From positions 62,001 through 126,000 of the forward strand of contig NZ_JAMTCO010000007.1 of the NCBI RefSeq assembly GCF_024171925.1: a stretch of DNA of 64,000 nucleotides, in the 5' to 3' direction. Position 1 is the stretch's first letter. Every line of letters begins with the position of its first letter. Source of the DNA: Actinokineospora diospyrosa. GTDB lineage: Bacteria; Actinomycetota; Actinomycetes; Mycobacteriales; Pseudonocardiaceae. This document shows, piece by piece, positions 1,886 to 26,382 of this stretch. The position numbers were made by a program, and so were the translations under genes. The notes below the pieces were generated by a model. That model saw only the letters and a program-made list of their open reading frames with translations. It was not told the DNA's origin and did no database searches.

Positions 1886-4870
1886 TCAGTCGAAGAGGTT
1901 CGCCAGACGCGACTGGGTGTCGGTCAGCGAGGACACACCCGGCAGGGCCGAGGTGGCGTCGATGCCCGACAGCGCCGGGGTCTGCACCGGGAGCTGGTGC
2001 AGCGACGGCGCCTGGAACAGGTTGCCGGAGAAGGCACCGGTCAGGTTGTCGGTCGGCAGCGTGCTCAGGCCGGGGACGTCCGCGCGCGAACGGCCGGTCG
2101 GGATCCCGTGCACCGGCAGGGTGCTGGTCAGGCCACCGGTGCTGGGCAGGCCACCGCCGCCGAGCAGACCGCCGGTGAGGTTGCCGGTCGGCAGGCCGCC
2201 ACCGGTGAGGTTGCTGGTCGGCAGGCCACCGGTCAGGTTGCTGGTGGGCAGGCCACCGCCGCCGAGCAGGCCGTCGAGCGGGGTGCTCGAGTACGAGCGC
2301 TGCATGGGCAGGCCGCCGAACACGCCGTTGAAGGGGAGCTCGGTGACGCCGAGGCCGCCGACGGTGGGCAGGCGGAGCGGGGTCTCGTCGTCGGCACCGT
2401 GCTCGCCGACGGTCGTGGTGTTGACCTGCGAGGCGGAGGTGATCGCGTCCGCGGCCACCTCGACCGGCACGTCGTACACCGGGGCGTTGCCGCGGATCGG
2501 GCCGGTCAGGTGGATGCCGTTGAGGCTGCCGCCGTGGCCGCTGGTCTCCGAGGTGCCACCGATCTGGCCGGAGGTGTTGTTGTCGGAGATGCCGAACGCG
2601 TCGCTGCCGACCGCGGACACGGCGTCGCCGTGCGGCTGCACGAAGGCACCGGCCGGGACGTCGGCCAGGGTGCCGGAGAGGAACCCGTGGTCGCCGTTGG
2701 TGGTCAGGTCGCCACCGGAGTTGGTGGAGCTGACCGAGGACGAGTTGGCCTTGTTGTCGCCGCCGACACCCGCGACCGCGGCACCGAAGGCCTGCACGAG
2801 CGGGCCTGCCTGGGCACCGATGAGGTTGCCGGACAGGTTGCCGTCGCGGCCGTTGGTGGTGGCCGACGACCCCGCGGTGGTGGTGACGTCGTTGGTGGCA
2901 CCGGCCTCGTTGTCACCGGCGATGGCGACCGAGTCGCCGAACGCCTGGGTGGCACCGGCGATCGGGGCGGTGACGATGTTGCCGGACAGGTTGCCGTCCG
3001 AGCCGTCGGTGGTGGCGACGTCACCGGTGGAGGAGTTGGTGACGTTGCTGGCGGTCGCCTTGCCGTTGCCCAGCGCCGAGACGCCCGCGCCGAAGGCCTG
3101 CAGCGGGTTGCTGATCGGGCTCTGCACGATGTTGCCGGAGCCCGTGCCGCCGATGCCGGTCGACTTCGAGGGGCCGCCCGCGCTGATCTGGTTCTCCAGC
3201 GCGGTGTCGGAGGTGGTGTTGGCCACCGCGCCCGCGCTGTTGCCGAACACCTGGATCGGCAGCGACGCCGGGGCGTTGAGCAGGTTGGCCGCGAGCACCG
3301 CGTCGTCGTCGGCGGTGTTGGCGTCGCCGCCCGCGCTGGAGAACTTGGTCTCCGTGGCGTAGATGTCCTGGTCGCCCAGCACGCCGACGCCGTTGCTGAT
3401 GAGCTCGGCGGGGGCGGTCACCGGGATCTGGCCCGAGTTGCCGCCACCGACGGAGTCGTCACCGGCGGTACCGGCGTCGCCGCCCGCGCTGGTGGTGGTG
3501 ATGTTCTCGCAGGCGATGTCCGAGTCGCCGACCACGACGCCGCCGTTGGCGCACGAGTCGATCGGGGCCGAGACCGGGCCGTTGATCAGCGAACCGCCGA
3601 GGACGCTGTCGTTGCCGCGGGTGATCGCGGTGCCGCCCGAGCTGGTGTCGATGACGTTGTTCTGGTCGGTCGACGCGTCGCCGATGACGCCACCGGCGTT
3701 GCCGATCACGCTGGTCGCCGCGGACACCGGGACGACGCCGATGGCGCCACCGAGCACCGAGTCGGTGCCGTCGGATCGGTTGCCGCCGCCCGCGCTGGCG
3801 ACCAGGTCGGAGCTGCAGACCGCGTCGGACTGGCCGACCGCGACCGCGGAGGTGCAGTCGGAGGTCACCGGCGAGGCGATCCCCGGCTGCAGGATGTTGC
3901 CGCCGCCGGTGGAGTCCTGGCCGTTGGTGTGCACGTAGACCGGGTTGCCCGCGAAGTCGGGGCTCTCCTGGCCAGCCTGCGCGGTGGTGGAGTTGATCGA
4001 GTCGGCGTTGGCCTGCCCGATCACGCCGAGCGCGGTGCCGGTGCCGCGGACCGGGGCGGCCAGCGGGACGAGCGCCCCGTTGCCGCCGAGGGTGCTGTCC
4101 TCGCCGTTGGTGTAGACGACGCCGCCGACGAGGCTGTCGGAGCTGGTGGTCGACTCGGCGTCGGCGTTGCCGCCAGCGGCGATCGCGTTGCCGTTGAGCT
4201 GGACCGGGGTGGTGGCCTGGCTGCCGACGACGTTGCCGGAGATGGCACCGTCCTCGCCGCTGGTGGTGATGTCGCCGTCCACGGTGGAGCTCTGGGTGGC
4301 GGTGTTCTGCGTCTCGGCGTCGCCCGCGACGCTGATCGCGTTGCCGGTCACCTGGACCGGGGCGGCGTAGTCGAGGTTGACGACGTTGCCCGCGATCGCG
4401 CGGTCCTCGCCGTCGGTGCTGACCTCGCGGGAGATCGAGGACTCCTGGGTGGAGTCGTTGGTCACCGACGAGTCGCCGCCGAGGGCGATCGCGTTGCCGG
4501 AGACGTCGACCGGGACGGTCACCCCGCTGACGACCTTGTTGCCGCGCAGCGGCGAGTTCGCGTCGGTGGCCAGCCGGTTGGTGGCCGACTCGGCGAGGGG
4601 GGTGACCAGCTGGCCACCGGGCACCGCGGCGAGCAGCTCGCGCGGGCTGGTGGAGATGGAGCGGTTGATCCCCGGCAGGTGCTTGTCACCCAGCACGGTG
4701 CCAACCGAGTTGTTCTGCACCTTGGCGTCGACAACGATCTTCGCGTCCAGCGCCGATGCGGGCTGGTCGGGGTTGACGTTGTCGTCGGCGGAGGCGATGC
4801 CGGTACCCAGCATCAGCAAGCCGCCGGTGACCAGCGCGGTCTGGAAACCGCGCTTAGCCCAGGTCTGCAT
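1886..4870 (-). CDS. Exported chaplin-like multi-repeat surface protein
   Basis: The protein has 994 residues. It has a signal peptide (MQTWAKRGFQTALVTGGLLM, cleavage probably after ASA near residue 27). Residues about 100-800 are about fourteen imperfect repeats of roughly 50 residues. Each follows the pattern L(S/G)GN-x5-P-x4-P-x5-GNAxxxxGD, then a Ser/Thr/Asn stretch, then a TNGEDG-type turn. The GN...P...GN...G spacing resembles the chaplin (DUF320) domain of aerial-hypha coat proteins. Two repeats carry a cysteine pair separated by 12 residues. The C-terminus has short GGLPTSNLT repeats. The start at 4870 is preceded by AAGGAG; an upstream in-frame start at 4903 would spoil the signal peptide. 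There is no sortase motif. Chaplin relationship and surface role are inferred from the pattern. Confidence 0.7.
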   Translation of the reverse strand: MQTWAKRGFQTALVTGGLLMLGTGIASADDNVNPDQPASALDAKIVVDAKVQNNSVGTVLGDKHLPGINRSISTSPRELLAAVPGGQLVTPLAESATNRLATDANSPLRGNKVVSGVTVPVDVSGNAIALGGDSSVTNDSTQESSISREVSTDGEDRAIAGNVVNLDYAAPVQVTGNAISVAGDAETQNTATQSSTVDGDITTSGEDGAISGNVVGSQATTPVQLNGNAIAAGGNADAESTTSSDSLVGGVVYTNGEDSTLGGNGALVPLAAPVRGTGTALGVIGQANADSINSTTAQAGQESPDFAGNPVYVHTNGQDSTGGGNILQPGIASPVTSDCTSAVAVGQSDAVCSSDLVASAGGGNRSDGTDSVLGGAIGVVPVSAATSVIGNAGGVIGDASTDQNNVIDTSSGGTAITRGNDSVLGGSLINGPVSAPIDSCANGGVVVGDSDIACENITTTSAGGDAGTAGDDSVGGGNSGQIPVTAPAELISNGVGVLGDQDIYATETKFSSAGGDANTADDDAVLAANLLNAPASLPIQVFGNSAGAVANTTSDTALENQISAGGPSKSTGIGGTGSGNIVQSPISNPLQAFGAGVSALGNGKATASNVTNSSTGDVATTDGSDGNLSGNIVTAPIAGATQAFGDSVAIAGDNEAGATNDVTTTAGSSATTNGRDGNLSGNLIGAQAGPLVQAFGAAVAGVGGDNKANSSSVSSTNSGGDLTTNGDHGFLSGTLADVPAGAFVQPHGDAVSAVGSDAFGISDNNTSGQIGGTSETSGHGGSLNGIHLTGPIRGNAPVYDVPVEVAADAITSASQVNTTTVGEHGADDETPLRLPTVGGLGVTELPFNGVFGGLPMQRSYSSTPLDGLLGGGGLPTSNLTGGLPTSNLTGGGLPTGNLTGGLLGGGGLPSTGGLTSTLPVHGIPTGRSRADVPGLSTLPTDNLTGAFSGNLFQAPSLHQLPVQTPALSGIDATSALPGVSSLTDTQSRLANLFD

Positions 4871-22275: not shown

Positions 22276-25077
22276 CTAGACGACGATGTTCACCAGCCGC
22301 CCCGGCACCACGATGAACTTCTTGGGCGTGGCACCGCCAACAGCGGCGGCCACCTTCTCGTCCGCCAGCGCTGCCGCCTTCACCTCGTCCTGCGACGCGT
22401 CCGCCGCAACCGTCACCCGACCGCGGACCTTGCCGTTGACCTGGACCGGGTACTCGACCGTGTCCTCGACCAGGTAGCGCTCGACCGCGACCGGGAACGG
22501 CCCGTGCGCCAGCGACTCGACGCCGCCCAGCTTCTCCCACAGCTCCTCGGCGATGTGCGGGCACAGCGGCGCCAGCATCTGCACCAGCGGAACCGCCACC
22601 GACCGCGGCGCGCCGTCGGGGAAGGTCTTGGTGATGTGGTTGTTCAGCTCGATCAGCTTCGCGCCCGCGGTGTTGTAGCGCAGGTTCGCGTAGTCCTCGT
22701 GCACCCCGGCGATCGCCTTGTGCAGCGCGCGCAGCGTGGTCTCGTCCGGCTCGACCTCGGTGACCCGCAGCGCGCCGGTCTCCTCGTCGACCAGGTTGCG
22801 CCACACCCGCTGCAGGAACCGCTGCGCGCCGACGACGTCCTTGGTCGCCCACGGCCGCGAGACGTCCATCGGCCCCATCGACATCTCGTACATCCGGAAG
22901 GTGTCGGCGCCGTAGGTCTCGCACATCTGGTCCGGGGTGACCACGTTGCGCAGGCTCTTACCCATCTTCCCGTACTCCTGGCGCACCTCCTTGCCGTCGT
23001 AGAAGAACTTGCCGTCCTTCTCGACGACCTCGGACGCGTCGACGTACACGCCGCGCTCGTCGGTGTAGGCGAAGGCCTGGATGAAGCCCTGGTTGAACAG
23101 CCGCCGGTACGGCTCCTCGCCGGTGACCTCGCCCAAGTCGAACAGCACCTTCTGCCAGAACCGGGCGTACAGCAGGTGCAGCACCGCGTGCTCGACGCCA
23201 CCGATGTACAGGTCGACGCCGCCGGGGTCGCCGGGGGAGCGCGGGCCCAGCCAGTAGCGCTCGTTCTCCGGCTCGACGAACCGGGCGCCGTCGGTCGGGT
23301 CGACGTAGCGCAGCTGGTACCAGCACGACCCCGCCCAGTTGGGCATGGTGTTGGTGTCGCGGCGGTAGGTCTTGGGGCCGTCACCCAGGTCCAGCTCGAC
23401 CTCGACCCACTCGGTCGCCCGCGACAGCGGCGGGGACGGCACGGTGTCGGCGTCCTCGGGGTCGAAGGTCTTCGGCGAGTAGTCGTCGACCTCGGGCAGC
23501 TCCACCGGCAGCATGCTCTCCGGCAGCGCGATCGCGGTGCCGTCGGCGTCGTAGACCACCGGGAACGGCTCGCCCCAGTAGCGCTGGCGGGAGAACAGCC
23601 AGTCGCGCAGCTTGTACTGGATGGTGCCGTGGCCGTGGCCCTGCTCCTGCAGCCAGTCGATGATCCGGGCCTTGGCCTCGGTGATGCCCAGCCCGTCCAG
23701 GAACCCGGAGTTGATCGCGGGCCCCTCACCGGTGAACGCCTCGCCGTCGAACCCGGCGGTCGGCTGCACGGTGCGCACGACCGGCAGGCCGAACGCGGTG
23801 GCGAAGTCCCAGTCGCGCTGGTCCTGACCGGGCACGGCCATGATCGCGCCGGTCCCGTAGCCCATCAGCACGTAGTCGGCGATGAACACCGGGATCTGGG
23901 CGCCGGTGGCCGGGTTGGTCGCGTACGCGCCGGTGAAGACGCCGGTCTTCTCCTTGTTCTCCTGGCGGTCCAGGTCGGACTTCAACGACGCCGCGCGCCG
24001 GTACGCCGCGATCGCCGCGCCCGGGTCGGCCGCGCCGCCGGTCCACCGGCTGTCCACATCGGACGGCCACGCCGCGGCGGCGATCACGTCGACCAGCGGG
24101 TGCTCGGGCGCCAGCACGACGTAGGTGGCGCCGAACAGGGTGTCCGGCCGGGTGGTGAAGACCTCGACCTGCTGCGCGCCGACGCCGAAGCGCACCCGGG
24201 CGCCGTTCGAGCGGCCGATCCAGTTGCGCTGCATGGCCTTGACCTTGTCCGGCCAGTCCAGCCGGTCCAGGTCGTCGATCAGCCGGTCGGCGTAGGCGGT
24301 GATCCGCATCATCCACTGGCGCAGGTTGCGCCGGAACACCGGGAAGTTGCCGCGCTCGCTGCGCCCGTCCGCGGTGACCTCCTCGTTGGAGATCACCGTG
24401 CCCAGGCCGGGCACCCAGTTCACCGGCGCGTCGGACAGGTACACCAGCCGGTGCTCGTTCAGCACGCCCTGCCGCTCGGCGTGCGACAGCTCGGCCCACG
24501 CGCGGCCGTCCGGGGTCGCCCGCTCACCCGAGTCGAACTGGGCGACCAGCTCGTCGATGGGCCGCGCCTTGCCCGCGTCGGCGTCGTACCAGGAGTTGAA
24601 GATGCGCAGGAAGATCCACTGCGTCCACCGGTAGTACTCCGGGTCGATGGTGGAGATCCGGCGCCGCTCGTCGTGCCCCAGGCCCAGGCGGCGGATCTGC
24701 CGGATGTAGTTGCCGATGTTCTCCTCGGTCGTCTTGCGCGGGTGCTGACCGGTGGAGACCGCGTACTGCTCGGCGGGCAGGCCGAAGGCGTCGAAGCCCA
24801 TCGTGTGCAGGACGTTGCGGCCGTTCATCCGGTGGTAGCGCGCGAAGACGTCGGTGCCGATGAAGCCCAGCGGGTGCCCGACGTGCAGGCCCGCGCCGGA
24901 GGGGTACGGGAACATGTCCTGCACGAACAGCTTGTCCTCGGGCACCGGGCCCGCCAGCGGCCCGACCGGGTTGGGCGCGTGGTAGGTGCCGTGCTGCTCC
25001 CAGTGGTCCTGCCAGCGCCGCTCGATCCGGCCTGCCAGCGCCGCGCTGTACCGGTGGCTCGGCTGCTCGTCAGTCAT
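22276..25077 (-). CDS. leuS: Leucyl-tRNA synthetase
   Basis: The 933-residue class Ia synthetase charges tRNA-Leu with leucine. The HIGH motif appears as HVGH at residues 65-68 ([12 protein letters not shown]) and the KMSKS loop as KMGKS near residue 704, a variant known from actinobacterial LeuRS. The editing CP1 domain ([20 protein letters not shown]) is present at about residues 310-470, and the C-terminal anticodon-binding and tRNA-binding domains are complete. It is transcribed with a leader encoding a Leu-rich peptide and an intrinsic terminator, so expression probably rises when leucyl-tRNA is low. Its 3' end is 9 nt from the convergent TetR gene. Confidence 0.98.
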
Positions 25078-25125
25078 GGTGGAAACGTCCCTCTCGCGCT
25101 CTAGTCCCGGTCCTGCCCCACGAAA

Positions 25126-25161
25126 GCGAAAACCCCCCAGGCCCGATGGGCATGGAGGGTT
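25126..25161 (-). terminator. Attenuator terminator in the leuS leader
   Basis: AACCCTCC (25161-25154) pairs with GGGGGGTT (25138-25131). An inner GCCC-atc-GGGC hairpin (25151-25141) lies between the arms. TTTT follows directly, with further U-rich sequence. It lies between the leader peptide and leuS, so it must be bypassed for leuS expression. Confidence 0.8.
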
Positions 25162-25222
25162 GCCGCGCTCACCAACCGTGTGGTCAGCGCGGCTGACTAA
25201 GGAGCAGGCGGGCCGTGCTCAT
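25162..25222 (-). promoter_or_regulatory. leuS attenuation leader (hairpin and competing pairing)
   Basis: The leader RNA contains GCCGCGCT (25193-25186) pairing perfectly with AGCGCGGC (25169-25162). It also contains GGTTG (25177-25173), which can pair with CAACC (25162-25158) and so occupy the 5' arm of the terminator. The first hairpin starts just behind the Leu codons. Stalling on them would disturb it and free GGTTG for antitermination. Normal translation to the stop would allow termination. The pairings are read from sequence; the mechanism is inferred by analogy with classical amino-acid attenuators. Confidence 0.65.
25184..25222 (-). CDS. leuS leader peptide with three consecutive Leu codons
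   Basis: The 12-residue [15 protein letters not shown] has Leu codons CTG, CTC and CTT in a row at positions 6-8. A -10 element TAAACT ends 6 nt before its ATG, so the leuS transcript probably begins at this start codon (leaderless). The stop lies within the leader hairpin. Three adjacent codons for the amino acid handled by the downstream synthetase are the hallmark of a ribosome-stalling sensor. Confidence 0.75.
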
Positions 25223-25228
25223 AGCACG

Positions 25229-25234
25229 AGTTTA
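25229..25234 (-). promoter_or_regulatory. leuS promoter -10 element
   Basis: TAAACT on the minus strand with a 6-nt gap to the leader-peptide ATG at 25222. No convincing -35 hexamer was identified. Confidence 0.55.
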
Positions 25235-25266
25235 CCCCACCCGGTCCACGTCATTTCGCCGACGGG

Positions 25267-26382
25267 CTAGAGCCGGACCCCGAGTGCAACCACCTGGGTG
25301 ACCTGGGTTGCGCTGAAGTTGTCATCGCTGACCAGCAGCAACGACCGCTCGCCGGTGCGCAGCCGCGGCCCCCAGGCGATCCCCTCGATGTTGTCCACAG
25401 TAGACAGCCCGAGGTCGGCGAGGTCGACCAGCAGCCGCTTGCGCACCGGCCGCACCCCGGTCGGGTCGGCCAGGTCCCGGTTCGCCACGTTGGTCGCGCC
25501 CGTCGTGTCGACCTCGTAGACGCGCACCTTGTTGCCGACGCCGGTCACGAACGCGCGCTCCACGACCAGGAACCGGGTCGGGTCCAGCGGGTCGACGGCC
25601 AGGATCGAGCTGACGCCGTTGGCGGCGAAACCGGTGGCCGGGGTCGGCTTGGCGAACACCGGCTCCTCCGGGTACGCGTACTGCGCGAGCTGGTGACCGG
25701 TCCGGGTCTGCACCGCGATCCGGGTCAGCGCGCCGTGCTCGGGCGTGGCGTCCGGGCCGTCCTGCAGCAACGGCCCCTCGACCGCGGCGACGACCAGGCT
25801 GCCCGCGGCGGCGTAGGTCAGGCCCTCCAGGACCAGGTTCTGCCGCGGCCCCCGGTCAGCGGTGATCTTCAGGTTCGCGGGCAGCGGCAGCTCGCGGGCG
25901 AACCTGCCGTCGCGCTCGGCGGTGCGGATCGACGGGTCGATGAGCAGGTTCGGGCGGCGGTCGCCCTCCTGGCTCCAGGTGTAGTCCCCGGTCCACGGGT
26001 CGACCCGGATGTCCTCGGGGTCGACGGTGGTGCCGTCCCCGGTCGACAGCGGCGGGTAGGTCTTGCCGTCGGGCCGCAGCAACGGGCTGGTGCCGGTGAA
26101 CTCGACGGGCCCGACGCCGGTGGCGGTGACGTCGATGCGTGCGGTGTAGAACCGGGCGGGCTGGCGGTCCGAGCGGTCGTCGCTGATCAGGACGTACCCG
26201 CCGGTGCGCGGATCGCGGTCGATGCCGGAGAGGCCACCGACCGTGGTGCCCTGGAAGACCAGCGCGTTGGGCACGATCCGCTCACCGATCAGGCGGACCT
26301 TCTGCGGGTGGGCTTGCGCGGGCACGGCGAGCACGGCTGCCGCGACGGCGGCGGCGCAGAGAGCAGCTGAGGCGCGAGACAT
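25267..26382 (-). CDS. Secreted esterase-like phytase-family protein
   Basis: The 371-residue protein has a signal peptide (MSRASAALCAAAVAAAVLAV, cleavage near AQA-HP, residue 26). The body is a predicted beta-propeller with repeated blades such as GGLSGIDRDPRTGGYVLISD, FAANGVSSILAVDPLDPTRF and TVDNIEGIAWGPRL. This is the pattern of the esterase-like activity of phytase domain (PF13449). Such proteins are exported; real substrates are rarely known. The start at 26382 places the signal peptide first. It is divergent from the SdpI gene and lies 45 nt upstream of the leuS promoter on the same strand. It also contains one perfect DnaA-box sequence (25391-25399), probably by chance. Confidence 0.85.
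   Translation of the reverse strand: MSRASAALCAAAVAAAVLAVPAQAHPQKVRLIGERIVPNALVFQGTTVGGLSGIDRDPRTGGYVLISDDRSDRQPARFYTARIDVTATGVGPVEFTGTSPLLRPDGKTYPPLSTGDGTTVDPEDIRVDPWTGDYTWSQEGDRRPNLLIDPSIRTAERDGRFARELPLPANLKITADRGPRQNLVLEGLTYAAAGSLVVAAVEGPLLQDGPDATPEHGALTRIAVQTRTGHQLAQYAYPEEPVFAKPTPATGFAANGVSSILAVDPLDPTRFLVVERAFVTGVGNKVRVYEVDTTGATNVANRDLADPTGVRPVRKRLLVDLADLGLSTVDNIEGIAWGPRLRTGERSLLLVSDDNFSATQVTQVVALGVRL

Follow-up and report, generated by a model that had tools for sequence, protein, structure and literature searches.

The window, that is, the whole stretch of 64,000 nucleotides that was analysed, carries a leuS coding sequence of 933 amino acids on its minus strand (25077–22276), identified by the Pfam LeuRS editing domain (PF13603) and used below for codon counts. 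Upstream on the same strand, a 12-codon leader ORF, recognised from the sequence and from relatives, extends from 25222 to 25184 and reads ATG AGC ACG GCC CGC CTG CTC CTT AGT CAG CCG CGC TGA. Its three adjacent Leu codons, CTG CTC CTT, occupy 25207–25199, and the CTT (25201–25199) lies 8 nt 5′ of a predicted hairpin (hairpin A, 25193–25162), the 5′ arm of which coincides in part with the end of the leader ORF, namely its final codons and stop. Hairpin A is abutted directly by a second predicted hairpin, the putative terminator (25161–25131), the stem of which is followed by a short U-run, UUCGCUUU, or TTTTCGCTTT if two paired U residues are counted. The leuS ATG at 25077 follows 53 nt further on. 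On the other side of the ORF, the last T of a –10-like box, TAAACT (25234–25229), lies 6 nt before the leader ATG. The fold of the leader region scored better than 200 of 200 shuffled sequences (z = –3.1).

The positions that the first-pass annotation had assigned to the ORF, to the hairpin at 25193–25162, and to the terminator stem at 25161–25131 all hold on the sequence. A generic scan of 24900–25500 returned neither a sigma-70 promoter nor an intrinsic terminator, thus omitting the 25161–25131 stem, because no –35 element was recognised and the U-run is short. The terminator call therefore rests on the strength of the stem and its conservation. No Rfam family, including the T-box, matched above its gathering score in the 64,000 bases, and a T-box was rejected on this basis. 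Elsewhere in the window, the assignment of 1917–3362 and 3363–3938 as leuCD was dropped, as Pfam matched nothing there.

The leader matches the leuS attenuator of Streptomyces, and its kind is therefore already known, the present locus being a new occurrence. Classical leuS attenuators were predicted in S. avermitilis and S. coelicolor, according to the available text of Seliverstov 2005 (PMC1262725), and the leader peptide LeuL2 of S. lividans TK24 is given as MRAVRLLLSEPR in the available portion of PMC8079986. As far as these sources extend, the window leader shares with leuL2-leuS its 12 codons, three Leu residues, the PR tail, the hairpin, and the terminator with a U stretch before leuS; the features of the leuL2 type, namely a short ORF with LLL and a PR or PC tail, followed by a hairpin and an intrinsic terminator before leuS, are all present. 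The two differ in that the window leader starts with MSTA and leuL2 with MRAV, and in that the Leu codons are CTG-CTC-CTT in the window and CTT-CTG-CTT in loci that encode the MRAVRLLLSEPR peptide, such as L107. This peptide was found in six loci (L107, L110, L112, L113, L117, and L119), and L114 has SGPR. Within the literature covered, from which most subscription journals are absent, a leuS leader of this kind was found for Streptomyces only, and the leuS passages of PMC3896937, PMC9413887, PMC11995493, and PMC6238534 describe none.

Among the genomes of the same genus, 14 of 16 carry the leader, hairpin A, and the terminator before leuS with small changes. In the other two (G005 and G014; loci L018 and L019), LeuS is of a different kind, here termed type B, and no leader was found. 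A covariance model, R1, was built on the 14 same-genus leaders and given 100 loci, 75 of which matched on the leuS strand within 340 nt upstream of the gene. The resulting alignment, A2, has 76 rows, since a spurious plus-strand match (L004) was kept in the covariation count; it is absent from the 75-leader sets used below.

In A2, pairing in the base helix of hairpin A reaches 99.6%, and four of its seven pairs changed on both sides; one pair of the helix is C-G in 45 sequences and U-A in 30. The terminator hairpin is 95% paired, with both-side changes in 10 of 13 pairs. Over 32 pairs, 26 showed both-side changes, amounting to 227 such cells compared with 58.7 ± 5.9 in shuffles, a score that is favoured by the fitting of A2 to the tested structure; slid partners fall to 40–48% paired. 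The helices of the R1 model that involve the start codon and the Leu codons are less well kept (76–80%) and were not relied on. The spacing between hairpin A and the terminator is also tight: of 42 representatives, 28 have no nucleotide between the two, and the other 14 have 1–3 nt. Thus, the alignment of the upstream region of relatives, the check that the first-pass annotation had proposed, retained the Leu codons and revealed compensatory changes in both hairpin A and the terminator. The leucine leader of leuS is real, and its reading as a Leu-codon leader and attenuator is well supported by conservation and covariation, with a Streptomyces ortholog in print. In the A2 columns after the terminator, many other families have a U-run followed by YRTG (TTTTTTCRTG), which the window itself does not have.

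The leader is widespread in the order. With strict filters and E ≤ 0.01, R1 matched in 64 of 121 order genomes and in 13 of 246 genomes of a phylum sample; 35 of these 246 matched the type-A LeuS query at 1e-40, and the remainder were covered by R1 alone. When R1 was combined with a separate descriptor, which misses L065 and L067 (leaders read by eye) and several R1 matches, a leader was found at leuS in at least 83 of the 119 genomes placed out of the 121 examined. This figure is a minimum, since L150, the leader of which was recognised by eye, escapes the tally; two unplaced genomes (G054 and G047), both with a model match beside leuS, are also excluded. By family, the leader is present in 15 of 15 genomes of the window's own family (f1), 14 of 14 in f15, 13 of 14 in f16, 12 of 14 in f4, 8 of 14 in f10, 8 of 13 in f2, and 1 of 5 in f3. 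Neither R1 nor the descriptor found a leader in any of the 14 genomes of f8, the Nocardia/Mycolicibacterium group as judged from the named loci beside it in the tree.

In a peptide scan judged by eye, 26 of 80 named loci were labelled as leader-bearing, including Kibdelosporangium, Lentzea, Saccharothrix, Actinophytocola, Saccharopolyspora, and Prauserella, as well as Jiangella, Glycomyces, Micropruina, Knoellia, and Georgenia. The same scan showed no leader in 18 Nocardia, 4 Mycolicibacterium, 4 Actinomycetospora, and 1 Corynebacterium loci. These 26/54 labels may contain errors, as a Pseudonocardia locus (L223) was counted as having no leader yet has a clear one on inspection; the counts below use the labels unchanged. 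Overall, the range of the leuS leader is wider, and its design rules are firmer, than found in print, so that a prediction confined to Streptomyces becomes a conserved regulatory family with more than 80 sampled members.

The –10-like box is conserved in position. In every one of the 75 aligned leaders, TAnnnT was found 6–8 nt before an in-frame ATG or GTG start codon, compared with 0.74 expected from shuffled upstream sequence, although the match is aided somewhat by choosing the in-frame start that best fits the box, a choice that gives peptides of 24–25 residues in L135 and L146. The spacing is 6 nt in 49 leaders, 7 nt in 23, and 8 nt in 3. This spacing, with the transcription start placed accordingly, implies a leaderless mRNA, and leaderless initiation is likely to be a fixed design feature of the family. 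The first-pass annotation had regarded a leaderless leader peptide as unusual for an attenuator; it is not odd here, because the spacing holds in 75 of 75 leaders and S. lividans leuL2 is reported, in the available portion of PMC8079986, to be leaderless with a hairpin and U stretch. The corresponding feature in the window is the –10 box 6 nt before the ATG. Leaderless short ORFs with runs of one codon before cognate genes are also known from the mycobacterial Cys-responsive leaders (Canestrari 2020, as cited in PMC13236596), which differ in the amino acid and genes concerned and for which the available text of PMC13236596 speaks of translation attenuation.

The register of the leader with respect to hairpin A is nearly invariant. 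The in-frame triplet at –8 of hairpin A is CTT in 72 of the 75 leaders and CTC in 3; it is never CTG, the commonest Leu codon among the genes counted. CUC and CUU are both decoded by tRNA-Leu(GAG). In 69 leaders the ORF ends with TGA at +7 of hairpin A and in the other 6 with TAG at –2; no other stop position occurs. The regulatory codons are cognate to the downstream gene (Leu before leuS), as is characteristic of a ribosome-mediated attenuator. For the Salmonella leu leader, replacement of the rare CUA codons by CUG is reported to have lowered sensitivity (PMC1183508, available text).

The leuS coding sequence itself is also depleted in the codons read by this tRNA. In the window, its 65 Leu codons comprise 63 CTG and 2 TTG, with no CTC or CTT (CTY). 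In the same genome, CTY amounts to 19% of Leu codons in IleS, 33% in MetS, and 46% in ValS, which were named from their sequences and presumably are these synthetases, and to 36% in rpoB (partial ORF), 42 and 47% in groEL, 14% in leuA, and 36% in the cimA-like gene. The difference between leuS and the three synthetases is significant (Fisher p = 2e-9); the synthetase values are single rows, and pooled totals were left unused, antisense frames having been taken in L005, L007, and L032.

Among the named loci, leuS genes labelled as leader-bearing have a median CTY of 2.7% and a mean of 10.7% (26 loci; flank mean 43%, 25 loci), and those labelled as without a leader have a median of 27% (54 loci; flank mean 41%, 47 loci). 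CTY was lower with a leader in each of the five families that contain both states (f2, f3, f4, f10, and f16), within which the samples are small and related. Across 83 loci with and 34 without a leader, the Mann-Whitney test gave p = 2e-11, uncorrected for kinship, on a set that omits f5, f6, f7, f9, f12, and f14 and adds seven Streptomyces-like loci. The 83 loci with a leader in this comparison are a different set from the 83 leader-bearing order genomes described above. The avoidance is weak in f10 (22.8%), although 8 of 14 genomes there have the leader. CTC is used freely in leader-bearing leuS of Knoellia (41 of 72 codons CTY) and of two Georgenia loci, and several Nocardia leuS genes without a leader avoid CTC. 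The type-B leuS genes of the window's genus, before which no leader was found (L018 and L019), show ordinary CTC usage, with CTY at 26 and 29%. A CTY-poor leuS coding sequence fits the selective-charging theory as set out in the available part of PMC1183508.

What can be read from the sequences is the elements themselves, the way they are conserved and covary, the constant register, and the biased codon usage. Taking these together, we consider it likely that transcription of leuS is attenuated here in response to leucine by a ribosome on a leaderless mRNA, and that the region is a homologue of the leuL2-leuS system of Streptomyces; the transcription start, termination, stalling, and read-through are the predicted steps of this mechanism. 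The ribosome would initiate at the 5′ terminus of the emerging transcript and read the three Leu codons, of which the decisive one would be the CUU located 8 nt before hairpin A and read by tRNA-Leu(GAG). When leucine is plentiful, the ribosome would pass the CUU and be released at the stop codon, which lies within the 5′ arm of hairpin A. Both hairpin A and the terminator next to it would then fold, and many transcripts would end near 25125. If tRNA-Leu(GAG) is not charged, the ribosome would halt on the CUU, and its leading edge would open the lower 4–5 pairs of hairpin A. The leading edge of a ribosome lies about 15 nt from the P site, and with the CUU in the A site, the ribosome would be expected to cover about 4–5 nt of the 5′ arm. 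With hairpin A opened, more polymerases would read into leuS, and the leuS coding sequence, which avoids CUC and CUU, would still be translatable when tRNA-Leu(GAG) is empty.

In this mechanism, hairpin A may serve as a polymerase pause hairpin, as support for the terminator, or as both. The RNA polymerase pause consensus includes a pyrimidine-G dinucleotide. Such a YG occurs at nt 10–11 after hairpin A in 64% of the 42 representatives, compared with at most 31% at the 18 other offsets tested; in the window it is the UG at 25152–25151, a candidate pause dinucleotide. This position would suit a pause stabilised by hairpin A.

A classical attenuator of the trp type would reach the same outcome by a different route, with a 2:3 antiterminator formed between GGUUG in the loop of hairpin A and CAACC at the junction of hairpin A and the terminator, as the first-pass annotation had proposed. 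The GGTTG/CAACC pairing does exist in the window sequence, and the Streptomyces leuS leaders are called classical, with antiterminator hairpins, in the available text of Seliverstov 2005 (PMC1262725). The pairing is, however, not kept in relatives: the 5 bp are possible in only 3 of the 14 same-genus leaders, and the proportion of paired cells equals the shuffle level (73.7% compared with 72.8%; 218 of 500 shuffles were as high, on 13 distinct sequences). Any other competing pairing was sought with a mask test, in which the 5′ part is concealed as if by a ribosome and which asks whether upstream RNA captures arm 3 of the terminator before arm 4 has been transcribed; its folding ignores pseudoknots and proteins. 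The test detected four of four known systems, with maxima of 1.0, 0.85, 0.74, and 0.81 for the E. coli thr, leu, trp, and his leaders, respectively. These likewise have a leader ORF with runs of cognate codons, a hairpin, and an intrinsic terminator before the gene, but they have a pre-emptive 2:3 pairing, which was not generally found in the leuS leaders.

For the 75 leuS leaders, none of the 13 masks gave a median arm-3 engagement above 0.25. With masks resembling a stall (+2 to +10 into hairpin A), 9 of the 75 reached 0.5 and 2 reached 0.7; at any mask, 24 reached 0.5 and 7 reached 0.7, with a top value of 0.81, and the window genome reached 0.40 with hairpin A masked. The pairings of the leaders with their own partners were weaker than with swapped ones (–8.65 compared with –9.02 ± 0.17 kcal/mol). 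A generally conserved 2:3 pairing was therefore rejected. The low medians and the weaker own pairings indicate that a textbook antiterminator, possible in some members, is not the conserved part of the family, and we regard a trp-type switch based on GGUUG/CAACC as unlikely. Of the observation in the first-pass annotation, the ORF, hairpin, and terminator thus stand, and the competing pairing as a functional feature, and with it the "classical" arrangement of three elements, does not, an antiterminator like that of E. coli being found in a minority of relatives. The leuS leader would accordingly work like a classical attenuator without strictly being one, as a conserved 2:3 antiterminator is missing, and the family raises the question of whether such leaders use the textbook antiterminator. 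The actinobacterial ilvB1 attenuator of M. tuberculosis also combines branched-chain codons in a uORF with an intrinsic terminator, and its regulatory codons were tested by reporter; it differs, according to the available text of PMC13236596, in its 166-nt leader, its predicted anti-terminator, and its place before a biosynthetic operon rather than a synthetase.

The remaining explanations fare less well than the trp-type switch. The leader could be non-regulatory, the short ORF being dispensable and the terminator behind it constant and partial. This agrees with the 22 leaders folded under a stalled-ribosome mask, all of which kept the terminator in the prediction, and with the high probability of terminator pairing in the majority of the 75. 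Against this speak the scarcity of CTY in the leuS coding sequence and the register, in which start, sensor codon, stop, and hairpin keep fixed places; we regard it as highly improbable. A nascent-peptide arrest, in which RLLLSxPR stalls the ribosome for a cause other than tRNA charging, would account for the likeness of the peptide from the window's family to the Streptomyces-type leaders, but the PR/PC tail is encoded by the covarying 5′ arm of hairpin A, and the residues ahead of the Leu run vary freely. This explanation was rejected on the fixed synonymous choice at –8, the early stops (several leaders, for example that of Lentzea, end directly after the Leu run), and the reappearance of the design, with Ile codons, upstream of a citramalate-synthase-like gene; we give it hardly any weight. 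Scarcely more probable is a long-range control of translation, in which the Leu run would pair with the ribosome-binding region of leuS, a model put forward for the LEU element of leuA. The LEU element is likewise a Leu-codon run in a short upstream ORF of Actinobacteria, for which the available text of PMC1262725 proposes a pseudoknot and a pairing with the Shine-Dalgarno sequence, unlike the two tandem hairpins with terminator of the leuS leader. The minimum free energy structure of the whole leader does pair CCUGCUCC with GGGGCAGG after the terminator. However, pairing between the leader and the post-terminator region was no better with own than with swapped partners (–23.30 compared with –23.43 ± 0.37), and a pairing of the LEU-element type between the Leu run and the region before leuS showed no excess over swapped partners; this pairing was thus rejected.

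The leader is also found before the other kind of LeuS. Type-B LeuS is about 33–40% identical to type A in its N-terminal part (about 35% for L018 and L019 of the same genus). Leaders were found before type-B LeuS in f9, f10, and f14, most with CTT followed after 5 nt by GCCGCGC, and similar leaders lie before type-B-like LeuS in three phylum genomes of other families, two of them read by eye only; the loci concerned are L197, L199, L201, L203–L209, and L065–L067. In a 42-row LeuS tree, the leader-bearing genes fall on both sides of a deep split, and the control region therefore either outlived gene exchange or predates both types.

The design also recurs with a different amino acid. In f10, R1 matched Ile-codon leaders before a citramalate-synthase-like gene, so named from sequence resemblance and a Pfam LeuA_dimer match. 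The window's genome carries such a leader, MASVVIIIDRRAG, at L322:111–330 (contig C20 of G000), upstream of the gene at 331–1983 and with the same hairpin-plus-terminator design. The cimA query matched in 99 of the 121 order genomes, and 30 loci were examined with a scan for Ile/Val-rich peptides; an Ile leader was found in 16 of the 30, L322 included, with ATC at –8 in 9 and ATT in 7. The boxes before these leaders, where found, read CAnnnT, not TAnnnT. A literature search for an Ile-codon leader before citramalate synthase returned nothing related in the text it covered.

These features can be combined into a more specific and only tentative proposal, which we hold to be possible rather than probable. 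The leader would be an isoacceptor-specific circuit of sensor and escape, in which the CUU in fixed register monitors tRNA-Leu(GAG), leuS has been purged of CUC and CUU in most lineages, switching proceeds without an antiterminator through a hairpin that abuts the terminator, and the same chassis has been re-coded for isoleucine and placed before two kinds of LeuS. The leader family also allows the selective-charging theory to be tested in GC-rich bacteria at the level of single codons, as replacement of CTT by CTG should blunt the switch.

Some model matches fell before other genes or carried no visible leader (L071). In a distant actinobacterium, the match at L064 lies before an ilvB-like gene (leader MTNTIYTHNSVLLVVLLT) and has a similar hairpin-terminator layout, and a similar layout was observed for the matches before leuA-like genes of distant actinobacteria at L070 and L072.
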